From Roseibium sp. TrichSKD4 (lineage in GTDB: Bacteria; Pseudomonadota; Alphaproteobacteria; Rhizobiales; Stappiaceae), in the NCBI RefSeq assembly GCF_000148725.1, contig NZ_GL476319.1, positions 763,923 through 827,922 on the forward strand: 64,000 nucleotides of DNA, written 5' to 3'. This document shows positions 3,417-45,501 of this stretch, piece after piece (the stretch's first letter is position 1; each line of letters begins with the position of its first letter). The notes below the pieces were generated by a model, which saw only the letters and a program-made list of their open reading frames with translations, did no database searches and was not told the DNA's origin. A program made the translations under genes and the position numbers.

Positions 3417-4343
3417 TTAGACCGACCCAAACCAGCCCGAGTCGATGGCAACCTCTTCGATCATGCGGGTTCGAACACCCAGTTCGTACTGTTTGAGAAG
3501 GTCGCAAAGTCGATCTCCGTCTATGAGATCGATTGCTATAGCGCCATCACGGGTGGCTTCTTCAGAGGCTTGGCTGGTGAAGGTTCCGGTGGTGATGAAC
3601 AGCCCCTTGTCTGCTCGGCCTTGCAGAGCTCCGCGAAAATCCCGAATCTCTTTTGAACCTACGCTGCCTTTCCAACGCTTGCATTGGAAATAGACCTGAA
3701 ATGAAACCAGATTGACGCGCAGAACACCCACACCATCAATCCCGCCATCACCTGTCTTGCCTCGCACCTCCACCTTTATAAAACCGGCTTCCCTCAATAG
3801 CCGCTGAGACAGACGTTCAAACGCGGATGGGTCCATTAAGCGCAGGGTATCAAGAAGGTGAACCTTCCAGTCGCTTGCATCGCCATTGTCATCTTCCTGC
3901 ACCAGTTCTATTTGACCGGTTTCAATTTTCTGCTTTGAATTTTCGGCAGCTTCCTTGGCAAGTTTTTCTCTGCGTTTGGCTTTTTGACGCTCCCGCTCCT
4001 CTTCATTCACTTGTCGATATATGGCTCGTGTTTGTTCAAGGGTCGCGATCGCCTCGCCTTCATCCGTCAGTGCCCAAACTCCACGGGCTGAATTTTCCAA
4101 AGCGCCACCACGCTTCAGGAAGGTTCTTGCCCAACCGAGAAAGTAGGCCACACGAGTGCGATCATCACCTGGTTGAGCATAGGACTGTTCTTCTTCTGAC
4201 AGACCTTCAATCTCAATGACCTTTTCATCCAGCTCGTGAAGCGAAGCGGATCCGCCAATCTGTTTCAAAGCTTCAACCGTAGCCAACATCATGCCGGGAA
4301 GGTCAGGCATCCCGGTTGGTTCAATGGTAAAACGACGTGACAT
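3417..4343 (-). CDS. Mrr-family restriction endonuclease
   Basis: 308 residues. The N-terminal 110 or so form the winged-helix domain typical of Mrr_N, a charged linker (about 115-155) follows, and the C-terminal half is a PD-(D/E)XK nuclease. Within it FERLSQRLLREAGF, GKTGDGGIDGVG (catalytic Asp) and FQCKRWKGSVG (Q-x-K) are clear. Such enzymes cut modified or foreign DNA (type IV). GGAGCG stands 9 bases before the ATG. It follows the nuclease remnant by 25 bases on the same strand and was probably the last gene of a defence operon. Confidence 0.85.
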   Translation of the reverse strand: MSRRFTIEPTGMPDLPGMMLATVEALKQIGGSASLHELDEKVIEIEGLSEEEQSYAQPGDDRTRVAYFLGWARTFLKRGGALENSARGVWALTDEGEAIATLEQTRAIYRQVNEEERERQKAKRREKLAKEAAENSKQKIETGQIELVQEDDNGDASDWKVHLLDTLRLMDPSAFERLSQRLLREAGFIKVEVRGKTGDGGIDGVGVLRVNLVSFQVYFQCKRWKGSVGSKEIRDFRGALQGRADKGLFITTGTFTSQASEEATRDGAIAIDLIDGDRLCDLLKQYELGVRTRMIEEVAIDSGWFGSV

Positions 4344-4368: not shown

Positions 4369-4868
4369 TTAGAATCGGGAAACGCCGGGAACTGACGCAA
4401 ACAAGACTTGGGCGTCCATTTCTCGACCCCAGAAAAACTCGCCACCCAAGCTTTCGAGCTTAACAGCGGTTTTCTTGAAAATAGCCTCGGCATCCTCGGC
4501 CGCCCTTCGCGACGGAAATTGTCCCTGCATGCGCAGTGCCCAGCGCCCAATCGCAGCCGGTGGAATTCCTGCATTCAATTGATGCATTCTTGAAGCCGGG
4601 TCATTTGACACACCGATTTTCATAGCAACTGTCTTGTCGCCAAAATGTGCCGGCTTACCCAACAAAGCGGCCCCGTCCCCTTCAAACACCGCAAGGTAGA
4701 GAACCGTTTCCCCATCGACATAGACAGAATTTCGCTCACCACTTGAACCGGGAAAAGCTTTTGACGGAGAAAAAATCTCTTTTAGCGGCTGAGGAGATGC
4801 AGGCCCTTGGCCAATCGGAGGTTCACCGAAAACGTTAACCTCAGTAGTCCGCCCTGAACAACGTCTAA
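4369..4868 (-). pseudogene. GIY-YIG / T5orf172-like nuclease gene, cut by IS5-family element
   Basis: The frame is open from the IS edge to 4369 and encodes about 165 residues. The part NSVYVDGETVLYLAVFEG followed by AMKIGVSNDPASRMHQLNAG resembles the start of a GIY-YIG-like (T5orf172/Meiosis-type) domain that senses or cuts DNA. It lacks its own start codon. If the IS and one copy of CTAA are removed, the frame joins an ATG at 6262-6260 (MPVRRCSGRTTEV...), which gives a complete gene 35 bases downstream of the EVE-like gene. An alternative is that translation restarts inside at GTG 4689 and yields a short protein. Domain call is tentative. Confidence 0.55.
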
Positions 4869-6214
4869 GCCATTGATGTTGCGCGTGGCCGAAGCAATAC
4901 GCAAATATTCGATTTGACCGGTTTGGGGATGGGGTTTGTGATCCAGAGCAGCAAAATGATCAGTGCATTGAGGATCAGACGCAGGTTATGACCGGCTGCG
5001 GCCAGCAGGGCGTTGATGGCATCGCCATTTTTGCCATTGAGGAAGTTCCGGTCAAGTCGTCCATCTGTTTTCATGTGGCCGATGGTGGCCTCGATCGCTG
5101 ATCGTCGTTTCAGCTCACGCTTCATCTGTGCCGTCAGCCCGCGCTTCTGGCCGGAGATCATGACCTTGGCGTCGCCCTCATAATCATGCCCCCGATAGCC
5201 ACGGTCCACATAGACACGCTCAGCTTTGGTGCCGCAGACTTTCTCAGCCTGACTGATGGTGTCATTCAAGGTGTGCCCATCATAGGGATTGCCCTCAAAA
5301 GCCCTCGCCGCAAGAACCAATCCTTCCCGATTGGTCGTGGCAATGCCAACCTTGGCCCCGAACTCGTAAGGTGTTCGCGCCTTGCCCTTGGCAATACAGG
5401 CCACTTCCGGCGCATGCATGGAATAAATCTTGTTTTTGTCCTTGGGGGTCTGGGCCAGAAGCCGCTCCACCAGTCCCAGCAGACGGGAGAACCGGTGCTC
5501 AAGACCTTCGTTGCCTGCGATCTTGCGGGAGATGTCGCGATAGACCCGGCCCAGATAGGTCTTCAGCTTTTTGAGTTCCCGGCGCATCCGCTTGAACTGT
5601 TTGGCATGGGCATAACGGCCCGCCATCAAGGCCGCCTTTTTGGCAACTCTGGTATGGCTGCGACGCAAGATGATGCCGGCCCTCTTGGCCTGGCGCACCA
5701 GAAGCTGCAAGGCCTTGTGATAAAGACGGCTATCGGTGGGATGGGCAATGGCTTTGGGTTGAACGGTCGTATCAACCAAGACCCGCTCAAGGCTGCTCTT
5801 CTTGATCGTCCCGCTCTCAATCGCAACACCTACCGTAGCAGAAAGAAGCTTTTCCATTCCCTCAGGACCAATCCGTTTGCGCCAGCGGGTCATGGTTGAG
5901 GGATCAATGGGGAATTGGTGCTGGAAAAACTCAAAACCGCAGAAAGACTGCCAGTAGGGGTTTTCAACCCAACGCTCAACCGTCTCTTCATCGGAAAGAT
6001 CGTACATGTGCTTGAGAAAGTGCAGCCCGGCCATCAGACGCGTTGGTTTGGCCGGTCGTCCCAAGGGGCGATAATGCCTGCCGAACTCCGCATCAAATTC
6101 ATCCCAAGGCATCAGACCAGACAGCCGCACCAACGAATGGTTCATATCGATGATTGCGGCCAGGCGTTCCTTGAACAGATCGCCACACCGTTTGTTGCGT
6201 TTTGAAGGTCTCAT
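4865..6214 (-). CDS. IS5-family transposase
   Basis: 449-residue DDE transposase. N-terminal DUF772-type region with DETVERWVENPYWQSFCG and DPSTMTRWRKRIG is followed by the catalytic core: LVDTTVQPKAI (first Asp), VYVDRGYRGHDYEG (second Asp) and RRSAIEATIGHMKTDGRL (Glu). Length and motifs match the IS5 family, probably the IS1478-like group. The stop codon TAG is built from the flanking target base duplication TTAG, so the gene uses the whole left end of the element. Confidence 0.9.
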   Translation of the reverse strand: MRPSKRNKRCGDLFKERLAAIIDMNHSLVRLSGLMPWDEFDAEFGRHYRPLGRPAKPTRLMAGLHFLKHMYDLSDEETVERWVENPYWQSFCGFEFFQHQFPIDPSTMTRWRKRIGPEGMEKLLSATVGVAIESGTIKKSSLERVLVDTTVQPKAIAHPTDSRLYHKALQLLVRQAKRAGIILRRSHTRVAKKAALMAGRYAHAKQFKRMRRELKKLKTYLGRVYRDISRKIAGNEGLEHRFSRLLGLVERLLAQTPKDKNKIYSMHAPEVACIAKGKARTPYEFGAKVGIATTNREGLVLAARAFEGNPYDGHTLNDTISQAEKVCGTKAERVYVDRGYRGHDYEGDAKVMISGQKRGLTAQMKRELKRRSAIEATIGHMKTDGRLDRNFLNGKNGDAINALLAAAGHNLRLILNALIILLLWITNPIPKPVKSNICVLLRPRATSMA

Positions 6215-6812: not shown

Positions 6813-8462
6813 TTACGCGGCATACCGGCCGTCTTCAGTAACCTGAGCTTGACCGAGGGCCGCCAAGCTGGCGAGCAGCGGTTCGATCGCAGTGGTACGA
6901 GCACGCTGGAATCGACGGGCAATCTGTTCCGGACTCGCCTCGCCCAGTTCTTCAAGCACTTCCCGAACAGCCGCGATCTGTTCTGGCAGAACCTTTAGCC
7001 AAGGTGCCTTTTCGATCTTGATCACAGCACCAACATCCAGTTCCGTCTGTTTGCCCTTGGCTTCAGCTTTTTTGCCTTCCTGGTTTTGATAGTCGGGGCG
7101 CAACCAGCGAATATGACCGGCGGCCTCTTCCGCCGCACGTTCCTTGTTGAGATCGACCAGCTTGAACAGGATCTCCTCGTCGGTGAGATCCACCGGCCAG
7201 CCATAGGCATCGGCGACGGCAGCGTCGATCCGGTCGTGAATGTCCTTCAGGATCCCGATCAGCCCCTGATCGTAGATTTCCTTGTCCTTGCCCTCGATGG
7301 TCTCGCCCGCGCGCAGTTTTTCCAGAACGTTGTACATCTGGGTCAGCGTCAGCTTGGGATGCGCCGACTGTTGCCGCTTGCGATGGGCGTCCAGCTCTTC
7401 GCCGAGTGTGCGGAGGGCTTGTTTTTCTGCTTCATTGAGTTTTGGGAAGGGAAACGGATCGAAGCAACGCGTCTTGTTGTAACGAGGTGTAGCACCCAAG
7501 TCGCCGCCTTGAGCAAGCGCCCAAACATCATGAACGCGACCAGATAGAATTGCGACGAAGTGCGCATCAGACAGACCTATCCCATAGGCACCATGTTCAA
7601 CATCGGTATTCGGCCCTTCAAAGAAAAAAAGGCGATGCTTTGATGTTTCTGGGGCGACGATGAATCTGTCTAAACCGGATTTAAGTGCCCTGTAGTCCTG
7701 ATTAGATCGCCTAAATCGCCACCACTCGCGCCGCAGTTTTGGGTCATTATTTTCTGCGCGCTTAGGGAATACTTTCTCAAGTAATCTTTGGCAAACCCAA
7801 GGTGCAGTTTCCCGAAGTTCATTCTCCGATTCAATATCCCATGCATCTATGACGAAGCGCTGTTTTCGCTGTTTCGTAATCTCATGTGCAGAGAGGATTT
7901 GGCGGAGGAAGCGCTTTTCGTCTTTAGGCATCGATGATGCTTCCGCTGGGCTCAGAAAGAAGCCTCTAGAGCCAGTGGCAAATCCCATCGAACAAAGGTC
8001 CTGGTTCGAACGAAGTGGTTTTGCTGAGAGCACGTCTGCTCCAAGTCGTAGATTGGGACGAACTTTCCCAATATCGGTCTGAAATGCAACGTCCCAACCA
8101 TCATTCGAATTCAGTGCTCGGACTTCGGAACTGGTCGTAACGAGGCTGCCATTTCGATTTCCAGGCGCTACGACACTCATTGCTATTCGAACTTTTGCGG
8201 CGAAGACCGTATCTACCCATGGATGGTCGGGAACTGCATAAACGATAGAAACGGGGTGCTTAGGGTCAACAGTATATGCTTGAATGACGCGGACATTGAA
8301 AGTTTGCTTTGCAGCCCTGGTAGTGATCAGTCCAAATCTTCTAGTACCGCTATTTCGCGAACTTCCGCGTTTCTGAACAGACTGTGCTGCCTTGTGCCAC
8401 CAATACATTACGAAGTCGGCGCTTTCGGGCACCGTCGGATAGGCTTTTCTGAGGGCATGGAC
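6813..8462 (-). pseudogene. DNA methyltransferase (MmeI/class I type), N-terminus removed at IS21 junction
   Basis: About 550 codons remain in one open frame that enters directly from the IS21 end. It begins VHALRKAYPTVPESADFVMY, the region just after the NPPF catalytic motif in MmeI-like methyltransferases; RRFGLITTRAAKQTFNVRV, the target-recognition half and a C-terminal helical tail follow. The SAM-binding and NPPF motifs and any N-terminal nuclease are absent. The sequence beyond the IS21 is an IS3 remnant and not the missing half, so it was lost in a rearrangement. A GTG at 8432 could start a truncated protein without catalytic ability. Confidence 0.75.
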
Positions 8463-8575
8463 TGTTGATTTTCACTGAGAACTGACCCGGTGGCCCCATA
8501 AATTGTCACTGAGAACTGACCCATGTGAACACACTACCCCGACGTTTTTGGCTCGGGGGATATGGAGTGATCGAC

Positions 8576-10105
8576 ATGGGATTTTTGAGTGTCATTCGAC
8601 GCTGGGCATTGCGTGACAAAATGCCAATCAGAGAGATTTCCCGTCGCACGGGTTTATCTCGCAACACGGTGAAGAAGTATCTGCGCGAGGGCATTGTTGA
8701 GCCGAAGTTCAAAACCCCGCCGCGACCAACCAAACTTGATCCGTATGCGGACCGTTTGTCTTCTTGGCTTGTGGCCCAGACGCGCAAGTCGCGCAAAGAG
8801 CGTCGAACCGTCAAACAGATGCACGTGGATCTGGTGCAGTTAGGGTATGATGGCTCCTATGAACGTGTGGCGGCCTTTGTCCGTGCGTGGCGTGCGGACC
8901 GGCAGCGGGCGGAACAGACGACAGGGCGCGGCACATTTGTGCCTCTGATCTTCCAGCCCGGCGAAGCTTTCCAGTTTGATTGGAGTGAAGACTGGGCCAA
9001 TATTGGCGGCGAGCGACTGAAGCTTCAGGTCGCGCATATCAAGTTGTCACACAGTCGGGCGTTTTTGGTCCGGGCTTACCTGCTGCAAACGCACGAGATG
9101 CTGTTTGACGCCCATTGGCACGCGTTCCGCGTGTTTGGCGGCGTTCCTGGCCGAGGGATCTATGACAATATGAAGACAGCGGTTGATCGCGTCGGCAAAG
9201 GCAAGCAGCGGGACATCAACGTCCGTTTCAAGGCGATGGCTAGCCACTACGTCTTTGAGCCTGAGTTCTGCAATCCGGCTTCAGGTTGGGAGAAAGGCCA
9301 GGTCGAGAAGAACGTCCAGGACGCGCGCAATCGGCTTTGGCAGGTCATGCCCGTCCTTGCAGATCTGGCTGAACTGAACCAATGGCTTGAAGATCGGTGC
9401 ATCGCCCTTTGGGCGGAGACGCCGCACAAAGCCTTGCCGGGGTCTCTCGCCGATGTGTGGAAAGCTGAGAAGCCAATGCTGATGGCTCTGCCGCCGGCCT
9501 TCGATGGATTTATCGAACATAGCAAGCGAGTGTCTCCCACATGCCTGATCACATTCGAACGCAACAGGTATAGCGTGCCCGCCAGCTTTGCGAACCGCCG
9601 TGTCAGCCTGCATGTCTACCCTGACCGACTGGTCGTTGTGGCCGAAGGGCAAACAGTTTGTGAACATGCACGGCTCATTGATCGGTCCTGCCGCAAATCA
9701 GGCAAGGTTGTTTATGACTGGCGGCACTATCTTGCTGTCATTCAGCGCAAACCTGGCGCCCTTCGCAATGGCGCGCCCTTCACCGAGATGCCGGAAGCCT
9801 TCCAACGGCTGCAGGAACGCATGTTACGCAAGGAGGGGGGTGACAGGGAAATGGTCGACATCCTCTCATTGGTTCTGCAGCATAACGAAGAGGACGTGTT
9901 ACGCGCCGTGGACAAGGCGCTGGAAGCGGGTGTGCCAACCAAGACGCATATCCTGAACCTTCTACACCGGTTGATCGACCGTAAGCCGACGGAACATCCA
10001 GAAGTCGACCCACCGGACGCCTTGGCATTGCAAACCACGCCCGAGGCAAATCTAAATCGTTACGATGGCCTGAGACAGGCTGGGGAGAAGCGCCATGCGT
10101 CATGA
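8576..10105 (+). CDS. istA: IS21-family transposase IstA
   Basis: 509 residues from the ATG at 8576 (GGAG 9 bases upstream). Helix-turn-helix [20 protein letters not shown] at the N-terminus, rve/DDE core with [10 protein letters not shown] (Asp), [18 protein letters not shown] (Asp) and [20 protein letters not shown] (Glu), and a C-terminal beta domain with [15 protein letters not shown]. Acts with IstB in transposition. Confidence 0.93.
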
Positions 10106-10886
10106 CCCAGCCGGAGCCTCTATCGTCATCATGCTGCGCAGCCTCAAGCTCTATGGCATGGCAAATGCCGTCGAAGACCTGGTCGCCCAAGGTGCCCCAG
10201 CCTTTGAAGCCGCGACCCCGATGTTATCACAGCTGCTCAAGGCTGAAATGGCGGAACGAGAGGTTCGATCCATCGCTTACCACACAAAGGTCGCCCGCTT
10301 CCCTGCATACAAAGACCTCACCGGCTTTGATTTTGCGTCCAGTGAAATTAACGAAGCGAAAGTCCGGCAGTTACACCGGTGTGAGTTCATCGAAAACACC
10401 GAGAATGTCGTTCTGATCGGTGGGCCCGGCACGGGCAAAAGCCACACCGCCACAGCAATCGGCGTTCAGGCGATCGAACACCACAGGCGCAAGGTTCGGT
10501 TCTTCTCAACAGTGGAGCTGGTCAATGCACTGGAGCAAGAAAAAGCGATTGGCAAGGCTGGGAAAATCGCTGATATGCTGACCAAAGTCGACTTGGTCAT
10601 CCTGGATGAGCTCGGTTACCTGCCGTTCAGTTCATCAGGTGGGGCACTGCTCTTTCACCTGCTCAGCAAGCTCTACGAGCGCACAAGCGTCATCATCACA
10701 ACCAACCGTAGCTTCTCAGAATGGGCGCAGGTCTTCACAGATGCAAAGATGACCACCGCTCTCTTAGACCGCCTCACGCACCGCTGCCACATCTTGGAAA
10801 CAGGCAACGACAGCTACCGCTTCAAAGCCAGTTCCAAGGATACAAAGAAAACTAGAAAGGAGACCCCAACATTGACCGCGTCATAG
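10095..10886 (+). CDS. istB: IS21-family helper ATPase IstB
   Basis: 263 residues, AAA+ ATPase of the DnaC/IstB family. Walker A is [19 protein letters not shown], Walker B is [14 protein letters not shown], and sensor 1 is [13 protein letters not shown]. It overlaps the istA stop by 11 bases, the usual coupled arrangement, and selects and remodels target DNA for IstA. Confidence 0.94.
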
Positions 10887-10958: not shown

Positions 10959-11208
10959 AGAGTTCCGGTTCTTCCAGGGCCAGATCAATGACCTGTTGGC
11001 GGATATCATCGGGGATCCGGTTCCAGACCCGTGCAGGCATGGGGGCCGTGTCCTGCAAGGCATCTATGCCACCGGTTTGATATTTGTCATACCAGACGTA
11101 GAAGGTTGACCTTGGAATACCCAGCCGATCCAGCGTCTGTCTGACTGGAAGATGGGACTGCTCCACCAGTCGAATGATTTCAAGTTTCTCGGAGGCGGGA
11201 TATCTCAT
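10959..11208 (-). pseudogene. IS3-family OrfB, N-terminal fragment cut by IS21
   Basis: About 83 residues from MRYPASEKLEIIRLVEQS to LALEEPEL, where the IS21 end begins. Contains the helix-turn-helix LPVRQTLDRLGIPRSTFYVW; the entire catalytic DDE core is missing. Its start overlaps the OrfA stop (ATGA). Confidence 0.8.
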
Positions 11209-11582
11209 TCGTCGTCGACCCCATCCCCGATCATGCTTTTTTTGAGAAGGCGAAGTTCCAGAGCCTGTTCTGCAACCACTTCCTTCAAGTCCCTCGTCTC
11301 TTTGCGAAGAGACTTTACTTCATCAGAACTGGCTTCACGAGCTGCGTCCCCAGCAAGCCGTTTCTTGCCCGCTTCCATGAAGTCCTTGGACCAGGAATAA
11401 TACTGGCTCTGGGCGATACCTTCCTGGCGGCAAAGTTCTGCAATGCTGTCTTCGCCTCGAAGACCAGAAACCACTATGCGGATCTTCTCTTCAGCGGAAA
11501 ACCGACGGCGGGTCTGGCGTTTGATGTCTTTTACGATCCAATCCGCATCGTCGGTCACTCGGTCCTTCTTTCGTCTCATCAT
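11205..11582 (-). CDS. IS3-family transposase OrfA
   Basis: 125 residues from the ATG pair at 11582. HTH_Tnp_1 domain (RRRFSAEEKIRIVVSGLRGE, IAELCRQEGIAQSQYYSWSKDF) and a C-terminal leucine-rich coiled coil (SLRKETRDLKEVVAEQALEL). In IS3 elements OrfA is made alone or fused to OrfB by frameshifting; here OrfB is truncated so the element is dead. The outer end probably lies within about 11600-11645 but I cannot fix its terminal repeat. Confidence 0.85.
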   Translation of the reverse strand: MMRRKKDRVTDDADWIVKDIKRQTRRRFSAEEKIRIVVSGLRGEDSIAELCRQEGIAQSQYYSWSKDFMEAGKKRLAGDAAREASSDEVKSLRKETRDLKEVVAEQALELRLLKKSMIGDGVDDE

Positions 11583-11629
11583 TTGCTCCTGAGTTAGCAA
11601 TGATGAGCCAAAATCACTCCCTTACGAAA

Positions 11630-14633: not shown

Positions 14634-15824
14634 ATGTCAGATCCTCATTTGCTTGAACGCAGCGCGCGCCAAAGCGCACCGACCTCCTTTGATGGTGTTA
14701 CACGAGCCTTCGGGCCGTTTGACTTCCAGATCTATGATCCGGCTGATGTGGCCGTGGAAACGCGGGAAATTGGCGCTGTGAACTGGTTGCCGGCAACCGG
14801 TGTGACAATCCAAAAAGGCGCGGCGGATCCGGACTATTTTTCTATTCGTTTCGATGACGCGCAGCCGGCAACCCACGAGTTTCGCGTGCGCGGCAAGCGG
14901 GTGCATGAGCGCTCTGCCAGCCTCTACAGCGGCAAGGGATTGAGCGTTGCAGCGCTTTCCCGAGAGCTGCAACAATCGGCCATGGTCATGCAGGAAGTGC
15001 GCCGGGATGTTAATAGCGTCAACTTGGAAGAAGCTGCGGAAATAGTCTTTCTTGCGCGGCAAGAAGCACAGGCGGCGCAGGAACATGCCTCTGATGCCTT
15101 GGAGGCCAGGCAAGGCATTGAAACTGCCCGCGACACGGCGAAAGCCTACGCGAACGCCCCCGAAGATACCGAAGTCGAGCCCGAGCCATACTCCAGCAAT
15201 CATTATGCAGCCAAGGCGCAGAAGGCGGCAGGTGAAGTCGCAGGTGTTACGCAGGAAGTTGCGTCGCTGGTAGGTGAGACAGAAAAGCTAAAGCTGGCCG
15301 CGCCGTCGATTATCAAGACCATACCTGAAAACGACCGCTATCTTATCATTCCGATTGAGGATTACTTGCAGGGCAATTTGGCCGACATCGAGTTGGCGCT
15401 TTATGGATGGCTGCCCTCGATCAATAACCCGGAGATTGTGTTTCAGGTCAGCACGGACGGCGGTGCGAGCTGGGTCGCGTCAACGAGCTACACGAGTGCG
15501 TCCCTCTACGGCGCAAGCAATACAACGAACGCTAATACCCAACCAAACACGACTACATCAGGCCGCGTTTCGTACCGAGGGACCACATCGAGTTCAGCCA
15601 AGTGGGGTACTTTCGGGCACCTTAGGATTTTCCGAGATCTAAACCTGTTCACCATTCAGGGGCAGGTCGGGGAGTTTGATGAAACGGGGGTTTTGCGGGC
15701 GTGGCACCCTAACGTCCGTATCAGGGAACACACTGTAACGCATTGTCGGTTCTACTACGGAAGCAACGCTCTGTTTAGCGGGGCCAGCCGTTACTCCATC
15801 AAAAACAATCTGAGGCAGGTCTGA
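14634..15824 (+). CDS. Phage tail fibre protein, T7 gp17-like N-terminus
   Basis: 396 residues. The first 95 resemble the podovirus tail-fibre attachment domain (FGPFDFQIYDPADVAV, then ATGVTIQKGAADPDYFSIRF). A long helical, Ala-rich stretch follows (about 120-225, typical trimeric coiled-coil shaft) and then a beta-rich Ser/Thr/Asn tip (about 235-396) for receptor binding. GGAG lies upstream of the ATG. It binds the host surface at the virion tail. Part of a tail-fibre/lysis module with no head genes nearby. Confidence 0.75.
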   Translation: MSDPHLLERSARQSAPTSFDGVTRAFGPFDFQIYDPADVAVETREIGAVNWLPATGVTIQKGAADPDYFSIRFDDAQPATHEFRVRGKRVHERSASLYSGKGLSVAALSRELQQSAMVMQEVRRDVNSVNLEEAAEIVFLARQEAQAAQEHASDALEARQGIETARDTAKAYANAPEDTEVEPEPYSSNHYAAKAQKAAGEVAGVTQEVASLVGETEKLKLAAPSIIKTIPENDRYLIIPIEDYLQGNLADIELALYGWLPSINNPEIVFQVSTDGGASWVASTSYTSASLYGASNTTNANTQPNTTTSGRVSYRGTTSSSAKWGTFGHLRIFRDLNLFTIQGQVGEFDETGVLRAWHPNVRIREHTVTHCRFYYGSNALFSGASRYSIKNNLRQV

Positions 15825-16351
15825 TGCACAGTTTTGAGCTTCCAAATGGTGACCGGCGCACTGTGGACACCCTAGAGGTTTTGGGCGGCAACAAGTACCG
15901 CACGGCCAATCTCAAAGGTGAGCCGGTCGTTATCGACCCCGCCGATCCTGAAAGCCCGTACTTCGGCGCGATGTATCTGCCCGATGGGTTCCCGCCCGAG
16001 CCAGAACCAGCGCCAACAGAAGCGGATATTCGGACCAGTGCCGACGCCCGTGCACTTGCGCTTGCTGGCCAATATTCCGATGCAGAGCGGGAAACATGTC
16101 CGGTGCAAATTGCGGAAGCCGAAGCACTTGCGGCAAACCCAGAAGCCTACACGCCATTTTTGAACATGCGAGCTGAGAAGCGCGGCATGGATGCAGCGTC
16201 ATTGGCAGAAATTGTTCGCCAAAGGCAGTCAGCCTACGCGGCAGCAATGGGGGCTATCTATGGGGCAATGAATCAAATCCTAGCCAATCCGCCCGCCACG
16301 GTTTTAGAAATGGAAGCCGATCCGCGCTGGCCAACTTTTCCGACCACCTGA
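15824..16351 (+). CDS. Probable tail fibre chaperone or accessory protein
   Basis: 175 residues; the N-terminal half has short strands and a Pro-rich joint (PDGFPPEPEPAPTEAD), the C-terminal half is helical (AASLAEIVRQRQSAYAAAMG), the shape of many phage fibre assembly (Tfa-like) proteins. Its ATG overlaps the fibre stop (TGATG), so it is made in step with the fibre. Function inferred from context. Confidence 0.5.
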   Translation: MHSFELPNGDRRTVDTLEVLGGNKYRTANLKGEPVVIDPADPESPYFGAMYLPDGFPPEPEPAPTEADIRTSADARALALAGQYSDAERETCPVQIAEAEALAANPEAYTPFLNMRAEKRGMDAASLAEIVRQRQSAYAAAMGAIYGAMNQILANPPATVLEMEADPRWPTFPTT

Positions 16352-16415
16352 CACCTCGCAGTTAACCCCAGCGCCAGCCGCCTAGACTTGTGATCAAACA
16401 ACCGGAGATCGCAAG

Positions 16416-17228
16416 ATGGCGCTGAAAACTTTATTTTTTTCCTTGAGCATGTGCTGTTTCAGAGGGCGGGTATGTCATCACCCCAAAGACCCGGCGGGCA
16501 ACAACCGGGGTGTCATCCAGCGCACCTATGACGCTCATCGTCGGCGCATGGGCTTGCCCGTCCAAAGCGTACGGCACATCACAGATGATGAAGTACGGGC
16601 CATCTACCGCGAGCAATATTGGAATGCGGTAGCGGGCGATCAACTCCCCGCCGGGGTTGATTATGCCGTGTTTGACTATGCGGTGAACTCCGGCCCACGG
16701 CGGGCCATCAAGGAATTGCAGCGGGTGGTTGGTGCCAAACCAGACGGGATTATCGGCAATGAAACCCTGAGCAAGGTTGGTGAAGCGGTAGAGGCGACTG
16801 TCATCGTCAACCTTTGCGAACAGCGGATGCGGTTTGTGCGTGGTCTGCGCCATTGGCCAATATTTGGCAAGGGATGGACAAGGCGCATCGTTGGGCAATT
16901 TGAGGGCGCGCAAGACGACGATACAGGCGTTCTGGATCGTGCGACACTTATGGCAAGGCGCGCGTTGCCAGCCAACAAGAATGTGCCTATCCCTGCGCCC
17001 AAGGCGGCTGCTCCCGGCAAGGCTCTAGAAGAAGATATCAGCGCCGTTACGGTTGCCTCCGAAGTTGCCAAGGATCCCAAGTGGCTCGGCATCCTTGGGG
17101 CTTTTGGATCCACGCTTGCGACGGTCGCAACAAGTTCTGGTCCCATCGCCTGGGCGGTGGCTGCGGTGCTGATCGGTGGCGGGATCTATCTTGTCTATCG
17201 CACTGAGCGCGGGCAGCTCACTACATGA
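16416..17228 (+). CDS. GH108-type endolysin with C-terminal TM helix; N-terminus damaged
   Basis: 270 residues in the open frame. Family GH108 muramidases cut peptidoglycan with the Glu of an EGGY motif near residue 20. Here that motif is only readable in another frame: LEHVLF, then EGGYVITPK (16462-16488), then KDPAGNNRGVIQ occur in three successive frames, so the annotated frame replaces the catalytic Glu by unrelated residues. Downstream the family features are intact (YDAHRRRMGLPVQSVRHIT, AGVDYAVFDYAVNSGPRRAI, peptidoglycan-binding AKPDGIIGNETL) and a C-terminal transmembrane helix (WAVAAVLIGGGIYLVY) is present. Either the gene has decayed or the sequence has base-call errors in homopolymers. 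As read it should be inactive. Confidence 0.75.
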   Translation: MALKTLFFSLSMCCFRGRVCHHPKDPAGNNRGVIQRTYDAHRRRMGLPVQSVRHITDDEVRAIYREQYWNAVAGDQLPAGVDYAVFDYAVNSGPRRAIKELQRVVGAKPDGIIGNETLSKVGEAVEATVIVNLCEQRMRFVRGLRHWPIFGKGWTRRIVGQFEGAQDDDTGVLDRATLMARRALPANKNVPIPAPKAAAPGKALEEDISAVTVASEVAKDPKWLGILGAFGSTLATVATSSGPIAWAVAAVLIGGGIYLVYRTERGQLTT

Positions 17229-17476
17229 TTGCTCGGCTCGTTTCCTTCTTCACCGGTTGGAAAGCCAAGCTCTTGGCTCTCAGTGCCATTCTGGCGGCTC
17301 TGGGGGCGGTTTTGGCGCGTGTCTACCTTTTGGGAAAGGCAGCTACTCAGCAGGCGGCAGAAAGGACTGCAATCAAAGCCATGCGCAGACGCAAGGAAGT
17401 GGATGATGAAGTTTCCGCCATGGATCACTCCGATCTTGATGAGCACTTTTCTAAGTACATGCGCGACCGCGAGTAA
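17225..17476 (+). CDS. Inner-membrane spanin-like (Rz-type) protein
   Basis: 83 residues with an N-terminal transmembrane helix (LLALSAILAALGAVLARVYLL) and a charged periplasmic helix. Overlaps the endolysin stop by 4 bases. Its 3' part encloses the start of the lipoprotein gene in another frame, the Rz/Rz1 layout. Together such pairs fuse inner and outer membranes in the last step of lysis. Confidence 0.6.
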   Translation: MIARLVSFFTGWKAKLLALSAILAALGAVLARVYLLGKAATQQAAERTAIKAMRRRKEVDDEVSAMDHSDLDEHFSKYMRDRE

Positions 17477-17597
17477 CTTCTGCGATTTTGCAAATCCCAT
17501 TCGGCCATCTGTGCATGATGTTGTGACGGATGGGACCAAGCGGCAAATCGTCAAGCTAAACGAATTTGGTATCCGCGAATGCGGTTGGGAGTTTTAA
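17403..17597 (+). CDS. Outer-membrane spanin-like (Rz1-type) lipoprotein
   Basis: 64 residues embedded at its 5' end in the Rz-type gene in another frame (74-base overlap). The signal sequence ends in a lipobox LSTC; after it comes CDFANPIRPSVHDVVTDGTK, RQIV and CGW, a pattern common in small o-spanin-like proteins of alphaproteobacterial phages. Start at 17403/17406, or at the internal ATG 17436. Confidence 0.6.
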   Translation: MMKFPPWITPILMSTFLSTCATASNFCDFANPIRPSVHDVVTDGTKRQIVKLNEFGIRECGWEF

Positions 17598-17600
17598 GCA

Positions 17601-17894
17601 ATGGCTGAACAGAAAGCGCGTTTGATCCAGCCGGGGATCTCGGTCGGTAACGTGGTCACAATCCTGATCATGCTGTGTTCGCTGGCTCTCGGGTGGGGCC
17701 GCATGGAAAGCGCTCTCGGAGATCATGAGCGGCGCATTCTGGCAGGCGAAACAGAGCGGAAGGAAATGCGCAAAGCACAGAGCGACTTCTCGACGGGATT
17801 TGCAGAGCTGCGGGCTGACATGCGCCACGTTCTGACAGAGGTTTCCAGAATGCGCCAAACGGTGGAGCGGATTGAGTGTGAGCGGCGTCAATAG
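17601..17894 (+). CDS. Lysis-module membrane protein (holin or coiled-coil accessory)
   Basis: 97 residues with one transmembrane helix (VGNVVTILIMLCSLALGWG) followed by a long coiled coil (HERRILAGETERKEMRKAQ...VERIECERRQ). Position after endolysin and spanins suggests a lysis role; a single-TM coiled-coil protein could be a pinholin-like or accessory factor. The Mu-like prophage inserted 23 bases after its stop. Confidence 0.5.
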   Translation: MAEQKARLIQPGISVGNVVTILIMLCSLALGWGRMESALGDHERRILAGETERKEMRKAQSDFSTGFAELRADMRHVLTEVSRMRQTVERIECERRQ

Positions 17895-17963: not shown

Positions 17964-18067
17964 TCCGATTACTGACGTATGATTGGAGTGTCTATACGAG
18001 AATAGTAGCTCAGGTAACTCAGATAATGACTTCAGGTTTCATTGCCTTTTTTGAGGTGAGCAAAATG

Positions 18068-19357
18068 TCACTCTTCCCCGTAGTTGAGTATGCTTTTTAG
18101 ATTGTTATAGTCGATTGATTTGAAACCGGTTGTTTCACGCACTTCATCGAGGCTCTGGCGGTTTACTATTGCCGACAGCAATTCCATCTTTGAATTTAAC
18201 TGACGAATTCGTTCAATAACGGCCGCCCTTTTTTCCTTCGTAAGAGATAGCTCTTCCGACTTCATTCCAACCGCGTTTAGTAGTCGGGGCGTATTGTAAG
18301 GGCCTGCTTGACCATAGTAAATCAGATGCTCGAGATCCTCATAGTTTGCCGATATATCAGCGAGGTAGGCTATAGAGTAATTCAATAGCCCGTCTATCAG
18401 GTCTGCTACCTGTTTCGGTATCCGCTCCTTGCCGTAAACGGAACGGAAGAAAACCTCCCAGTTTTTTAGTTCATCAAGCTGCCAAGTGTGAGGATCAAAA
18501 GGGTCCACATGTTCTCGATCGAACCGCTTCAAGACAGCTGAATATACGTTGTCATTTAGTTCACGTTGAACTTGAGCCATATCAACGGCGTTTCGAAACC
18601 GTATTTGTAGTTCCGCAACAGCTCCATTCGGAAACAACTGAGCGTATCTCTTCAGCTCCGACTTAGGAATTGATAGCCCTTTTGACCGCAATTGCAGCGC
18701 AAAGCGTGTTAAAAAAATTGAGGTTTTTGATTTGTTTCCGATAGCAATTTCGGGGGCTTCTAGTATCTGCTCTAAGCAGACTAAGGGGGCCTTATTCGAG
18801 AATCTTCTTATCCATTCCTTTCGCTGATTGCGAAAATAGATCTTCCGTTTGCTTGACAACCTTCCATTGTTTGATGCGGAAGTCACTGCGGCACGAAATT
18901 TCGAAACCCAGTATCTCGAACTCACAGGGATCTCTAAGAAAGCATTATCTACTATTTCTTCGTCTTCCCGCGGATCGTTGTAGGATTTTTTTAGGATACG
19001 TTCTCGAAGTGATAAAAATGCCTTGATTGTATTTTGAGCTAATTTCGGTTCGAATTTCTGTATTTGTTGGACTGACCAATTGGGATCAACGAAGTAAGAG
19101 TTGTTTCCTTCCAGCAACGGTACGCACGCAAAACTCCCAATATCGGTTCGAAGTAAATTTTGGTCCCGAACCTCCCCAATTAATACTTCGTATGCGCCTT
19201 CATCGAGTGAATAAAAATCGAGAATAAGAAATCTTGCATCTGTTTTGGGGACGAACAGCCTGTTGGAGCGATCTCGCTGGTAAACGGGCACAGTTACTGG
19301 GTAGGTAGAGCTTCCAAATTTAAGACAGCCGTAAAGCCGATACTTTTGGTGTACCAT
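18068..19357 (-). CDS. Cargo gene of unknown function (429 aa)
   Basis: A long soluble protein with no domain I recognise. The N-terminal part is beta-rich (YRLYGCLKFGSSTYPVTVPV, then FLILDFYSLDEGAYEVLIGE), the rest mainly helical and charged, ending in a helical segment (RQSLDEVRETTGFKSIDYNN) that looks like a helix-turn-helix or hairpin. No signal peptide or membrane segment. Clearly more A/T-rich than the phage genes. It is the last gene of the cargo unit, 100 bases from the R sites, and its start overlaps the preceding gene (TAATG), so the two proteins are made together. Confidence 0.7.
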   Translation of the reverse strand: MVHQKYRLYGCLKFGSSTYPVTVPVYQRDRSNRLFVPKTDARFLILDFYSLDEGAYEVLIGEVRDQNLLRTDIGSFACVPLLEGNNSYFVDPNWSVQQIQKFEPKLAQNTIKAFLSLRERILKKSYNDPREDEEIVDNAFLEIPVSSRYWVSKFRAAVTSASNNGRLSSKRKIYFRNQRKEWIRRFSNKAPLVCLEQILEAPEIAIGNKSKTSIFLTRFALQLRSKGLSIPKSELKRYAQLFPNGAVAELQIRFRNAVDMAQVQRELNDNVYSAVLKRFDREHVDPFDPHTWQLDELKNWEVFFRSVYGKERIPKQVADLIDGLLNYSIAYLADISANYEDLEHLIYYGQAGPYNTPRLLNAVGMKSEELSLTKEKRAAVIERIRQLNSKMELLSAIVNRQSLDEVRETTGFKSIDYNNLKSILNYGEE

Positions 19358-20136
19358 TACTCAAGACGTCCCAATTTTTTGTAAAGTTCAACCGTCAGTG
19401 AATAGATCTCAGCAACATAGTGTTCTGATTTTAGTGGGTACAAATCGTAGTGCTTTACATCAATTCCTAACTGTTTAAAGCAGCTTTTCACGTCGGCGTC
19501 GTCAAAATAAGGGCGAGGTACTATTGCCCCTATCAAGTTTTCTTGGAGTAGAACATCATTGGAGGTTTGCACCTCGATAGCAGCTGCCCGATCATCGCTT
19601 TTGCGTTCAAAATTTTGTTTGCAAAGTGCTTTAACGCACGCATGTTTAACATCAAGCCGCCTCCTTGCCCGTATTTGTTCTTCTGTTCTTGGCGTATGCG
19701 ACATGTATTCTGCATCGCCTCCGAAGAAGACATCAATCAAGAGATCGAGAGCGTTAGGAACCGAAGAAATTTCGAATTCCTCTCTACCCAACTCAGTTAG
19801 ATATTTGGGGTAGATGCCTCGGTCAAAGGCACCGCTATCAAATGGAAAAATGCGCGTGACCGCCGAAACACACGTACTTTCAAATATAAGCGAAATTGGT
19901 AGCTGCCAATCTTCAGGATCTTCATAAACCCTACGAAAGGCAGGGCGACCATAAAAAAAATAGGCAAGATTCTCTGACGTAAATGTATCACATTCACTAA
20001 CTGAGACCTTACCCTCGTCAAGGATATACAACATTTGATTTGCTGTAGTTGAATGCACGAACGGTAATGATGCGCTGTTATTCGAACTGGATCCGGATAG
20101 AAAATCAGACAGTGATATCGGTCGTAAACTTGACAT
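19357..20136 (-). CDS. Cargo gene of unknown function (259 aa)
   Basis: Protein from MSSLRPISLSDFLSG; an in-frame TTG 27 bases upstream is an alternative start. Distinct motif FVHSTTANQMLYILDEG followed by LAYFFYGRPAFR. The spacing of the HST and Y-FYGRP parts recalls ADP-ribosyltransferase-like folds, but I cannot confirm this. Acidic, soluble, A/T-rich. Coupled by a 1-base overlap to the 429-aa gene. Placed where Mu carries mom, so it may be a phage-borne defence or fitness gene. Confidence 0.65.
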   Translation of the reverse strand: MSSLRPISLSDFLSGSSSNNSASLPFVHSTTANQMLYILDEGKVSVSECDTFTSENLAYFFYGRPAFRRVYEDPEDWQLPISLIFESTCVSAVTRIFPFDSGAFDRGIYPKYLTELGREEFEISSVPNALDLLIDVFFGGDAEYMSHTPRTEEQIRARRRLDVKHACVKALCKQNFERKSDDRAAAIEVQTSNDVLLQENLIGAIVPRPYFDDADVKSCFKQLGIDVKHYDLYPLKSEHYVAEIYSLTVELYKKLGRLE

Positions 20137-20225
20137 TTGTTTGTACCAAAATTTCCAATTCAATCAATTTGTGAAGAGAAGCGACTTAGAAGCAGACGCG
20201 CCGTTTTCCAAGTTGATAAAAATAT

Positions 20226-20351
20226 TCAGAGCCTAAACATGTGCAGTAGTGGTGTCAGTTTTCGAATTGATGACACTAATACAGCAACAATCGTCAACAT
20301 CACAGGGAGCACCCATAGTGAATATTTATTTGACGTGAATTTGCCTGTCAT
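20226..20351 (-). CDS. 41-residue single-TM peptide in the cargo unit
   Basis: ATG 20351 with GAGG 8 bases upstream. MTGKFTSNKY is followed by a hydrophobic helix (LWVLPVMLTIVAVLVSSI) and a basic tail. The size and layout fit small membrane toxins or accessory peptides. It overlaps the DUF5131 remnant by 26 bases and lies 89 bases before the 259-aa gene on the same strand. Confidence 0.45.
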   Translation of the reverse strand: MTGKFTSNKYSLWVLPVMLTIVAVLVSSIRKLTPLLHMFRL

Positions 20352-20472
20352 GGCGGAACCTCGTAAAAGAGATGTTCATTGCACAACAATTTGTACATCC
20401 GGCTGACATGATCGAACAACCCGCTACAGGGTTCCAAGTTGCGTCTGTCCACTCGATCTGTGTTTCGGCCAT
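20326..20472 (-). pseudogene. DUF5131 (phage Gp37/Gp68 family) remnant
   Basis: The first 32 residues (MAETQIEWTDATWNPVAGCS ... AGCTNC) are the typical N-terminus of DUF5131 proteins, normally about 230-300 residues and with a Cys-rich radical-SAM-like motif. The rest is missing and the frame ends after 48 codons in unrelated sequence. The deletion end point coincides with the start of the cargo unit, which suggests cargo exchange at this place. Confidence 0.65.
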
Positions 20473-20534
20473 CTCAATCAATTCCGAGTTAGTGACAATA
20501 GTTGAATCGGCTAACACCTAACTGCTTTTGGTCG

Positions 20535-20630: not shown

Positions 20631-21614
20631 CTATTCCCTGACCCTTTCGCATTCGGCCTCAGTCGTGTAGCCACTCGTGCTGATCTGATGGACCGCCCTT
20701 TGAACGGTCCAGTCTCCACCGATCTCGGGAACAAGCGCCGGGACGGTCAGCTTGCTCTCGGCGAGGATTGCCGTGTTGCCGACATCGGTCACCTTCAGCC
20801 GTTCCCCTGATGCATTGCCATCCTTGAGGGCAGCCTTGGCTGCCCGTTCGGCCTCGTCCTTCGTGGCATAGGATTTGGTGAGCGTTTTTTGCGGCGAGCC
20901 GGACCCAACAACGACTTCCTGTCGCTTGGCAGCCTCCTGATCGTGCCAGGTCGCCTTGACGGATTTGTAATTCTCCCGCTCTCCGGCCTCATATTCATAT
21001 GAGATCGTTCGGGGCAGCTCGATCGCGGGCAGCTGAATGCCGCTGGCCGTCTTGGTGGTTCCTCGATCGACAAAAAGCAGATCCTTGTCCGAGATCTTGA
21101 ACGTTGCCCCGACATCCCCGGCAAGCCGGGTCAGGAAGTTCATGTCGCTTTCCTGTGTCTGGTCGATATGGGGGATCGTGATCGATCCGATCGATCCGGA
21201 GACACGCGGTGTGAGGCCGTTGCGTCCGGCCACCTCCTGGACGATCGCATTGACCGTCTTGCGGTCATAGGATTTCGTGCGCTGTTCTTTTAAGGACCCG
21301 GACATGTCGGCAGCTGTACCGGTCAGGCGCATTGTGTGACCGGATGTCGAGCCGCTGGAGCCCGGCTTGTCCAGGAAGAACATACCAAGGCTTTCCCGGC
21401 CTGTTTCCAAATACCCAAATTCGCCAATGATCTCCGCTCCCACCGGTGGTAGGGCCATGGACGGATCGCGGACGATGGTGAACTCGATGGTGTCAGCTTC
21501 ATTACCGGAATTGTCAGTAATTGTGGCCGAGATCAGCCGCCCGAATCCTGCCTTGTTCAAGGCCGCTGATGAGACAGGTTTACCATCAATGGAGATCAGC
21601 CAATCCGGTGTCAT
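20631..21614 (-). CDS. D: Phage late control/tail hub protein, P2 gpD-like
   Basis: 327 residues. Beta-rich N-terminal domain (DWLISIDGKPV, then NEADTIEFTIVRDP) and a middle domain with EQRTKSYDRKTVNAIVQEVA and ESDMNFLTRLAGDVGATFKI, typical of P2 gpD/VgrG-like baseplate hub proteins. It is the last structural gene, following X and U as in P2. Confidence 0.85.
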   Translation of the reverse strand: MTPDWLISIDGKPVSSAALNKAGFGRLISATITDNSGNEADTIEFTIVRDPSMALPPVGAEIIGEFGYLETGRESLGMFFLDKPGSSGSTSGHTMRLTGTAADMSGSLKEQRTKSYDRKTVNAIVQEVAGRNGLTPRVSGSIGSITIPHIDQTQESDMNFLTRLAGDVGATFKISDKDLLFVDRGTTKTASGIQLPAIELPRTISYEYEAGERENYKSVKATWHDQEAAKRQEVVVGSGSPQKTLTKSYATKDEAERAAKAALKDGNASGERLKVTDVGNTAILAESKLTVPALVPEIGGDWTVQRAVHQISTSGYTTEAECERVRE

Positions 21615-44100: not shown

Positions 44101-44278
44101 CTCGGATCATCCTTCGTTTCAAGGTATCAAGGGATTGGGCTTTTCTGCGCAGTCGCTCAGAGCGCGCCCCGCGCTCCATGATCTGGCGGACAATTACCCA
44201 AAAAAGGAAAAGGCCCACCAGAAAGGCCGCGAACCGCCGCCCGATTTTTGAGCCGGTAATGAGGCCAAGAAACCACAT
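44027..44278 (-). CDS. Inner-membrane spanin
   Basis: 83 residues with one N-terminal transmembrane helix (FAAFLVGLFLFWVIVRQIM) and a charged periplasmic helix. Overlaps the endolysin stop by 1 base and the o-spanin start by 74 bases. Confidence 0.7.
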   Translation of the reverse strand: MWFLGLITGSKIGRRFAAFLVGLFLFWVIVRQIMERGARSERLRRKAQSLDTLKRRMIRDAELDRLGADERRRRLREWARADG

Positions 44279-45501
44279 CAGACCGTCTTGCCCCGCCTGT
44301 GGTCCTCAACGCGCGCCGATCCGGCCCGCCAATGCTGGAAGGTCATAAACGCAACGACAGCCAGAAGGGCAAAAAGAGCAATGCGGGACAAACCGCCAAA
44401 GGGGGCAATCATGGGCTCGATCGCAGCTATCGCATCCTGGAACGTTGCCGAGACCTCAGACAGGAGAACAAGCCCGCCAAGGCCGATGCCAGCTGCCCCG
44501 GTGCCGGTTCCTTTCACCGATGCATCGGCAATGCGTGAACCTTCTTTTTGCAAGGAAACAAGCGTCTCGGTGGTCCGCTTGGCCGGAACCGCCACAAGAT
44601 CACCTTCCGGAGTATGTTCAACGGTTACATCGTCTTGAATGGGAACGGCGCTTATAAGCGCGTCCTGTGTCTGCTGCCCAACAATGCCGTCCGGCTTCAA
44701 GCCGTGATCAGCCTGGAAGGCAACCACCGCCCGTTTGGTCGCTGGCCCGAAGTCCCCATCGACACGAAGAACATAATTAAGGTTGGTCAGCCTTAACTGG
44801 AGCCGCTCAACTTTTTCACCTTCAGAGCCAAGGCGCAAACTGGCCGCTCGTGCCTTGTTGCGGACCGTCAGGGATTGCCGCGTCAAGCGGCTGTATTCCC
44901 TTTTGATAAGGCGGGTGTAATGGTCAATCTGACCAGGGCCATTGTAGCGGCGAACAATCGCCCGAACGTCTCTGTCCCGAAGCTCATCAAAGAGACCGGA
45001 GTTTTCCAGGAACGCAATGAAGGCCGTGTCATGGGCAGCCTCACTTACTCCCAATGCGCGAACAAAGCCCTGGACTGTCGCAAAACCGCATTTGCCGTGG
45101 TTGAAGCCCATGATCTGGGCCTTGCCATAAGAAGCCGACTTGAGGCCCGCGTCCTCATCAAGGTCCACCATCTTGCCAAGGCGATCCCAACGGGAATCGG
45201 ATCCCGATTTCCCAAGGCCGGAATAGTTCTTGCGAGACCATTTGGGGGTGGAAAGCTTCAGTCGCCGCGCCCGAGCGCGCAAGGGTTTCGGCAATAGCCG
45301 GTCAAAGATGTGCTTTTCCGGCAGGATGATCAGCCGGTCTTTATCATCAAAAGCCCGGCCACCACTTTCAACGGCAAGGATCGCCCGAAGGAAATCAGCG
45401 TCACAGCCAATACGATTGGCAGCTTGCCCGATCGCCCTTTTATCGGCATTCCTTTGGCCGGGGCCATAAGCCAGATATTCGAAAGTGCTTGAATGGGTCA
45501 C
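44278..45501 (-). CDS. N-acetylmuramidase endolysin with PG-binding and TM domains
   Basis: 407 residues. N-acetylmuramidase (DUF3380) domain: GCDADFLRAILAVESGGRAF with catalytic-type Glu, LIILPEKHIFDR and KSASYGKAQIMGFNHGKCGF. A peptidoglycan-binding domain follows (KVERLQLRLTNLNYVLRVDG, DFGPATKRAV) and a C-terminal transmembrane helix (LSRIALFALLAVVAFMTF). Start is GTG 45501 with AGGAGG 9 bases upstream. An operator-like palindrome is 86 bases upstream. Confidence 0.87.
   Translation of the reverse strand: MTHSSTFEYLAYGPGQRNADKRAIGQAANRIGCDADFLRAILAVESGGRAFDDKDRLIILPEKHIFDRLLPKPLRARARRLKLSTPKWSRKNYSGLGKSGSDSRWDRLGKMVDLDEDAGLKSASYGKAQIMGFNHGKCGFATVQGFVRALGVSEAAHDTAFIAFLENSGLFDELRDRDVRAIVRRYNGPGQIDHYTRLIKREYSRLTRQSLTVRNKARAASLRLGSEGEKVERLQLRLTNLNYVLRVDGDFGPATKRAVVAFQADHGLKPDGIVGQQTQDALISAVPIQDDVTVEHTPEGDLVAVPAKRTTETLVSLQKEGSRIADASVKGTGTGAAGIGLGGLVLLSEVSATFQDAIAAIEPMIAPFGGLSRIALFALLAVVAFMTFQHWRAGSARVEDHRRGKTV

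Follow-up and report, generated by a model that had tools for sequence, protein, structure and literature searches.

The 64,000-nucleotide stretch of Roseibium sp. TrichSKD4 analysed here (contig NZ_GL476319.1, positions 763,923 to 827,922; hereafter the window) carries, inside a prophage, two overlapping minus-strand genes, A and B, which belong to a pair that recurs on plasmids, in prophages and elsewhere in bacterial genomes. The product of A is predicted, from a structural model and its invariant residues, to be of the ADP-ribosyltransferase type; that of B joins an N-terminal domain shared with its relatives to a C-terminus that differs between lineages. The order of the genes and their close coupling are kept, several of the C-termini duplicate proteins of the host, and the setting is A/T-rich and mobile. 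We read the pair as a mobile two-protein conflict module, an ADP-ribosyltransferase effector that would be restrained by B, with the exchangeable C-terminus of B as a recognition or bait module; we hold this reading at about even odds (roughly 50%). Judged from the sequence and its setting, the module is probably anti-phage. Our literature search found no description of the A-B pair, nor of a partner protein with a constant N-terminus and a C-terminus that has been exchanged repeatedly, in several lineages for something close to a housekeeping protein of the host.

Gene A (19357-20136, minus strand) encodes 259 residues from its ATG, or 268 from an alternative TTG start at 20163, and is predicted to specify an ADP-ribosyltransferase-fold enzyme of a new family. 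Gene B (18068-19357, minus strand, 429 residues) starts on the last base of A, base 19357 being common to the stop codon of A and the ATG of B, so that the junction reads TAATG. The preliminary description of this region had reported this 1-base overlap, together with three minus-strand genes of 41, 259 and 429 residues, all of which lie where it placed them. It had also called the two larger products strangers to known families, and indeed neither A nor B has an accepted match in Pfam, PHROGs, NCBIfam or PADLOC; the lone row returned for the B of the window, Pfam DUF2291 at E 0.22, is far below the cut-off. Likewise, the pair is clearly more A/T-rich than the phage genes around it, with 43.4% G+C as against 55.8% in the remainder of the prophage; a value as low is reached in 7 of 620 sliding segments (2069 bases, step 100), with starts at 18001-18601. 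A and B are real genes rather than chance reading frames, since their relatives stand in the same order in many genomes.

Looking for the pair elsewhere, as the preliminary description had proposed, recovered it in the same order on plasmids, in prophages and on other genome contigs. In a tblastn search of 72,556 plasmid records, A was found on 11 (in Rhizobium, Bradyrhizobium, Methylobacterium, Phaeobacter, Caballeronia and Sinorhizobium) and B on 6; 50,697 phage records yielded neither gene. A profile scan of species genomes yielded 56 loci out of 71 candidate stretches, mostly in Alphaproteobacteria and also in Burkholderiales, Verrucomicrobia, Planctomycetota and Bacillota; viral contigs gave 4 loci beyond the prophage of the window. 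Sampled genomes with A number 13 of 397 among Hyphomicrobiales, 12 of 398 among Pseudomonadota and, around one Bacillota carrier, 1 of 398 in its phylum and 3 of 394 in its order; each of these counts includes the centre genome, which was chosen as a carrier of A, and the first two samples overlap. We examined 90 loci (here numbered with an L), namely 70 from the searches (10 plasmid, 56 genome, 4 viral) and 20 from the samples, L114 being a repeat of L039.

B lies directly behind A in 83 of the 90 loci, a closely coupled two-gene operon kept across genomes as in type II toxin-antitoxin systems. Its start precedes the stop of A in 71 of these 83 and follows it by 0-60 nucleotides in 12, where the start was taken as the earliest start codon within 60 nucleotides, a rule that favours overlap. 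The seven loci set aside have no B within 400 nucleotides (L014, L044), a broken A (L030, L048), a contig end (L053, L061) or a displaced B (L064); in this last one (7732-9071 of the locus), about 1.3 kb separates B from A, as though something had inserted between them. Compared with its flanks, the pair has the higher A/T content in 73 of the 77 loci with enough flanking sequence (median -8.1 points, Wilcoxon p 2.7e-13), which is a common mark of mobile cargo. Among seven annotated plasmid regions, three have defence or toxin-antitoxin genes within a few kb of the pair, and the other four have none nearby except one DUF4238 gene. On a plasmid of Bradyrhizobium sp. 155 (L004:12607-14428), about 3 kb past the pair, two overlapping hypothetical genes of 705 and 1125 bases, similar in size to A and B, lie on the opposite strand; they are possibly a second, diverged system of the kind.

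For A, a predicted structure, the check that the preliminary description had suggested, gives an ADP-ribosyltransferase fold with DarT as the nearest relative (AlphaFold, predicted local distance difference test 95). Seven residues (H28, P98, D100, G102, D181, R183 and E188) are invariant in 80 of 80 aligned rows, and position 64 is R in 65 of them, K in 14 and I in 1. E188 falls within a predicted strand, 188-191; an invariant glutamate of this sort is expected of a DarT-type transferase. The matches to DarT span 162-171 residues; a putative correspondence of positions 64 and 188 to the catalytic R and E of DarT was read by eye rather than from a residue-level structure alignment. The similarity fades at the level of profiles: none of 55 A proteins (243-292 residues long) matches the DarT family PF14487 at E<=0.1, and an hhalign comparison of 80 A with 11 DarT sequences gives a probability of 4.6% and an E-value of 0.0087 over 27 columns, with a score of 24.6 where 30 column shuffles reach no more than 18.5. 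The same 55 proteins have no match in NCBIfam, and their Pfam matches are scattered, single and weak, the best (E 5e-4) being that of one member to an unrelated cytochrome family. Curated families thus do not cover A or B, and present annotation misses both. The fold would also accommodate another kind of enzyme, 2'-phosphotransferase-like in repair or an NAD (nicotinamide adenine dinucleotide) hydrolase, in which case the pair would be a repair or regulatory module. To this we give very little chance: the invariant E188 in its predicted strand and the length of the DarT matches speak against it, and the variety of the C-termini of B, described below, would be left unexplained.

The constant part of B is its N-terminal domain (19028-19357, minus strand), which is beta-rich, comprises about 100 residues and is probably the domain that binds A, acting as an adaptor. 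A hidden Markov model of the first ~100 residues of B, grown from ten seeds, matches 66 of 68 downstream open reading frames (ORFs; training rows included) and 20 of 20 in the loci added later, of which one duplicates a training row. Run against all loci, cut into 4192 ORF segments, the model picks up nothing beyond the B proteins except the displaced B of L064. Behind this domain the resemblance largely ends. Among 80 non-redundant pairs, giving 3160 comparisons, A is homologous in 3159 and B after residue 125 in 138; the C-termini fall into 34 clusters (blastp, E 1e-3), an upper bound of their unrelatedness in that two GcrA types land in different clusters. The length of B ranges from 208 to 1134 residues (85 proteins).

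In the window, the C-terminus of B (18071-19012, minus strand) is mostly helical and of no known family. Its cluster holds 12 further B proteins and leaves out the remaining 67; searches with it found no relatives outside B proteins, no PDB sequence better than E 0.36 and, in the Hoeflea genome of L013, no second copy of the helical domain, and the whole protein matches no Pfam family at E<=0.01. Other C-termini are recognizable as the C-terminal domain of DarG, helicases, a STAND NTPase with repeats, and FGE-sulfatase, RES, LuxR and cold-shock domains. The DarG case, the B of L050, was identified by phmmer and has 56% identity with the partner of a DarT; its A has no match to the DarT profile. 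No macrodomain appears among the 25 families listed of the 26 Pfam families that match 65 scanned B proteins. PADLOC scans, which covered A and B of the window and the same 65 proteins, gave matches of the latter to 54 families, of which, among those resolved, 48 are in the helicase-type L046 and 2 in L051. A further one is a DarG family, and the candidate family PDC-S34 is matched by 4 members (best E 7e-13); it is absent among the rows listed for ten B proteins scanned singly.

A further group of C-termini is borrowed from housekeeping proteins: ribosomal protein S9 (in three genomes), MurC, Rel, GcrA and IF2. The normal host gene is also present in every genome tested, so the fused copies are extras, and in 7 of the 8 tested the identity to the resident protein is 62-81%. 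For S9 the identities are 75.0, 80.8 and 64.5%, with the host S9 present in all three; the two closest fusions are each nearer a host S9 (79.2 and 80.8%) than they are to each other (70.4%), and the fused S9 keeps its full domain and C-terminal tail. These three proteins (L055, L060 and L132; two from Bacillota, the third from the same order) read as a second full-length S9 behind an N-terminal part of about 130 residues, and annotation by family alone would label them ribosomal proteins. The fused IF2 is 76% identical to that of its host. The fused MurC (67.1% over 459 residues; this 470-residue Mur ligase is assigned to MurC by reading of its sequence) keeps the lysine of the nucleotide-binding loop. 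For one fused GcrA the identity to the host protein is 61.7% across 128 aligned residues (48% when BLAST aligns 164 columns), and for a second it is 46.7% over 45 residues. The fused Rel has 62.6% identity with that of its host in an alignment of 732 columns. Its hydrolase HD motif reads HGGSAE where the host has HDTIED, and in the synthetase motif DIFGFR an H stands in place of the conserved aspartate; we take the altered residues to be catalytic. Since the S9 domain is intact and the loop lysine of MurC is kept, loss of activity is not a general property of the borrowed copies. Under any model such a domain is informative, naming either the target of an invader or the substrate of the enzyme.

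Several of these C-termini are binders of nucleic acids or of the ribosome by family, which, with the complete domain and tail of the fused S9, could point to a targeting adaptor: B would not inhibit A, and its C-terminus would dock A on a chosen complex, the ribosome through S9 or IF2, DNA through GcrA, LuxR or the helicases, RNA through the cold-shock domain, for A to modify what lies next to it. We regard this as quite improbable, because MurC, FGE-sulfatase and RES share no common docking site, and because an active effector without a brake would harm its carrier unless it were induced.

The way in which A and the C-terminus of B change bears on a further alternative. A shared C-terminus is seen in 39 of 39 pairs with more than 50% identity in A, in 40 of 44 at 45-50%, in 17 of 38 at 40-45% and in 7 of 2437 at 20-30%; replacement is thus not recent, as close A pairs keep the same C-terminus. 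In a tree of the 80 A proteins, one well supported clade unites L031 (IF2), L022 (cold shock) and L117 (no Pfam match), whose C-termini have no detectable similarity, and the Rel-type L052 is sister to L008, which has another C-terminus. This joint change fits co-adaptation or slow replacement. Co-adaptation would be expected if B were an antitoxin by substrate mimicry, with its C-terminus a look-alike of the host substrate of A that occupies or absorbs the enzyme; S9, IF2, MurC, Rel, GcrA and the cold-shock domain would then name the targets of A, and the pair would be a toxin-antitoxin system for addiction or abortive infection, with no separate phage sensor. The gene order, a toxin-like gene followed at once by its partner, is indeed that of darT and darG; the borrowed domains closely resemble their host counterparts, and the loss of active-site motifs in Rel would be in keeping with a role as decoy substrate. 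Moreover, the L050 protein has the C-terminal domain of DarG, which has been described as the part that binds DarT2 (PMC11543638). That domain may, however, keep its old DarT partner rather than bind A, the joint change may also reflect common descent, and the STAND NTPase, helicase, FGE-sulfatase and RES C-termini are hard to picture as substrates; we therefore consider mimicry of the substrate, the main rival of our reading, unlikely.

The reading that we prefer is a conflict module in which the C-termini, be they sensing domains, nucleic-acid binders or copies of host proteins, would have recognition in common. In it, A would be a harmful effector, an ADP-ribosyltransferase using NAD, and B, translated together with A, would bind and restrain it, most simply through the N-terminal domain. 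In some lineages the C-terminus would be a general binding or sensing domain (the STAND NTPase with repeats, the FGE-sulfatase fold, the helicases and the helical domain of the window); elsewhere it would be a bait, duplicating a host protein of a kind that may come under attack by phages or other elements, as for S9, IF2, MurC, GcrA and the Rel with lost motifs. An invader engaging the bait would cause B to release A, and the freed enzyme would modify a cellular or viral molecule, whereby the infection would be stopped.

The prophage around the pair corresponds by calculation to window positions 13401-55881, taking its IMG/VR record as collinear, and is read as Mu-like from its 756- and 249-residue ORFs. 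Of 15 candidate ends retrieved by a search for TG..CA termini flanked by a 5-bp duplication, none is convincing, and the search did not recover the R sites named in the preliminary description. On one side, the pair is flanked by the baseplate hub protein gpD of the tail operon (20631-21614, minus strand; PF05954 E 4e-15, phrog_52 E 3.3e-98). On the other, tail-fibre-like and lysis genes (14634-17894, plus strand) lie between it and the right end: a 396-residue protein, a tail fibre by reading of its ORF, a phrog_2618 protein, a GH108 endolysin (16416-17228) and an Rz-like spanin. The preliminary description was thus right to place the genes inside the prophage and wrong to place them between the tail operon and its end, and with these phage genes intervening, the likeness it had drawn to the position of mom in Mu finds no support. 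As read from their ORFs, the phage contigs L072 and L073 also have the pair between structural and lysis genes. A 407-residue ORF at 44278-45501 reads like a second lysozyme or peptidoglycan-binding protein of the prophage.

Next to A, a 41-residue ORF with a single hydrophobic stretch (20226-20351, minus strand) has no counterpart in the 90 loci (tblastn, best E 0.27) and, going by the sequences, probably stands outside the conserved unit, which reduces the proposed three-gene unit to two. The proposal of a defence, exclusion or toxin function carries over to the two larger genes, in view of the DarT-like fold of A, the recurrence of the pair as mobile A/T-rich cargo and its defence neighbours on plasmids, and not to the peptide. 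Also outside the unit is a DUF5131 remnant (20326-20517, minus strand; PF07505 E 2.2e-12), which had rightly been called cut: its 63 residues cover profile positions 1-41 of 243, and its presence beside the pair suggests turnover at the site. Outside the prophage, what reads by eye as a worn defence or mobile region has a restriction-endonuclease-like ORF (3417-4343) and an adenine methylase-like ORF of which the C-terminal part is present (6813-8432), among several transposase-like ORFs (4865-6214, 8525-10886, 11205-11600).

Of the known systems, DarTG, which combines the toxin DarT (PF14487) with the macrodomain antitoxin DarG, is the one whose enzyme has a fold like that of A, which is of the DarT type; it differs in that the 55 A proteins lack a PF14487 match, the profile similarity being weak, and in that no macrodomain is among the Pfam families listed for 65 partners. 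To our knowledge, the shared N-terminal domain of B and its C-termini other than that of DarG have no counterpart in DarG. A normal darT, with a darG-like macrodomain ORF behind it, is seen in a Hyphomicrobiales genome (L088:1474-2112), where a neighbouring ORF reads like a type I specificity subunit. CmdTAC, an ADP-ribosyltransferase toxin with an antitoxin and a SecB-like chaperone, follows the same logic as proposed here, its effector being held by partners and freed by a phage protein, as far as the available passages go (PMC11618068). These passages describe CmdT as of the diphtheria-toxin type, whereas A is DarT-like, and mention no variable C-terminus; the unit in the window has two genes, and a Pfam scan of the four ORFs in 18068-20517 shows no SecB-like gene. 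Kaur et al. 2020 (PMC7159879), writing on NTP-dependent diversifying conflict systems, report FGE-sulfatase and STAND modules from conflict systems and suggest a decoy function for inactive enzyme domains; in the parts of that paper available to us, the core is MoxR-vWA, and neither an ADP-ribosyltransferase with an adaptor nor borrowed ribosomal, IF2 or Mur proteins are mentioned. The pair may work like DarTG or CmdTAC while being a member of neither.

In plant immune receptors with integrated decoys, a conserved receptor includes a domain derived from a host protein under attack by pathogens. The proteins are unrelated to A and B, and a decoy role in the bacterial pair is hypothetical; a possible, still doubtful, view is nevertheless that the pair is an innate immune module of this design, with a constant ADP-ribosyltransferase effector, a constant adaptor and a bait taken from host proteins or from DarG. 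Were this so, each bait would name a host protein attacked by viruses, and the C-termini of B would amount to a catalogue of what viruses target in the bacterial cell. Phage defence by ADP-ribosyltransferase toxins that a partner keeps in check is already known; the new element here is the architecture of the partner.
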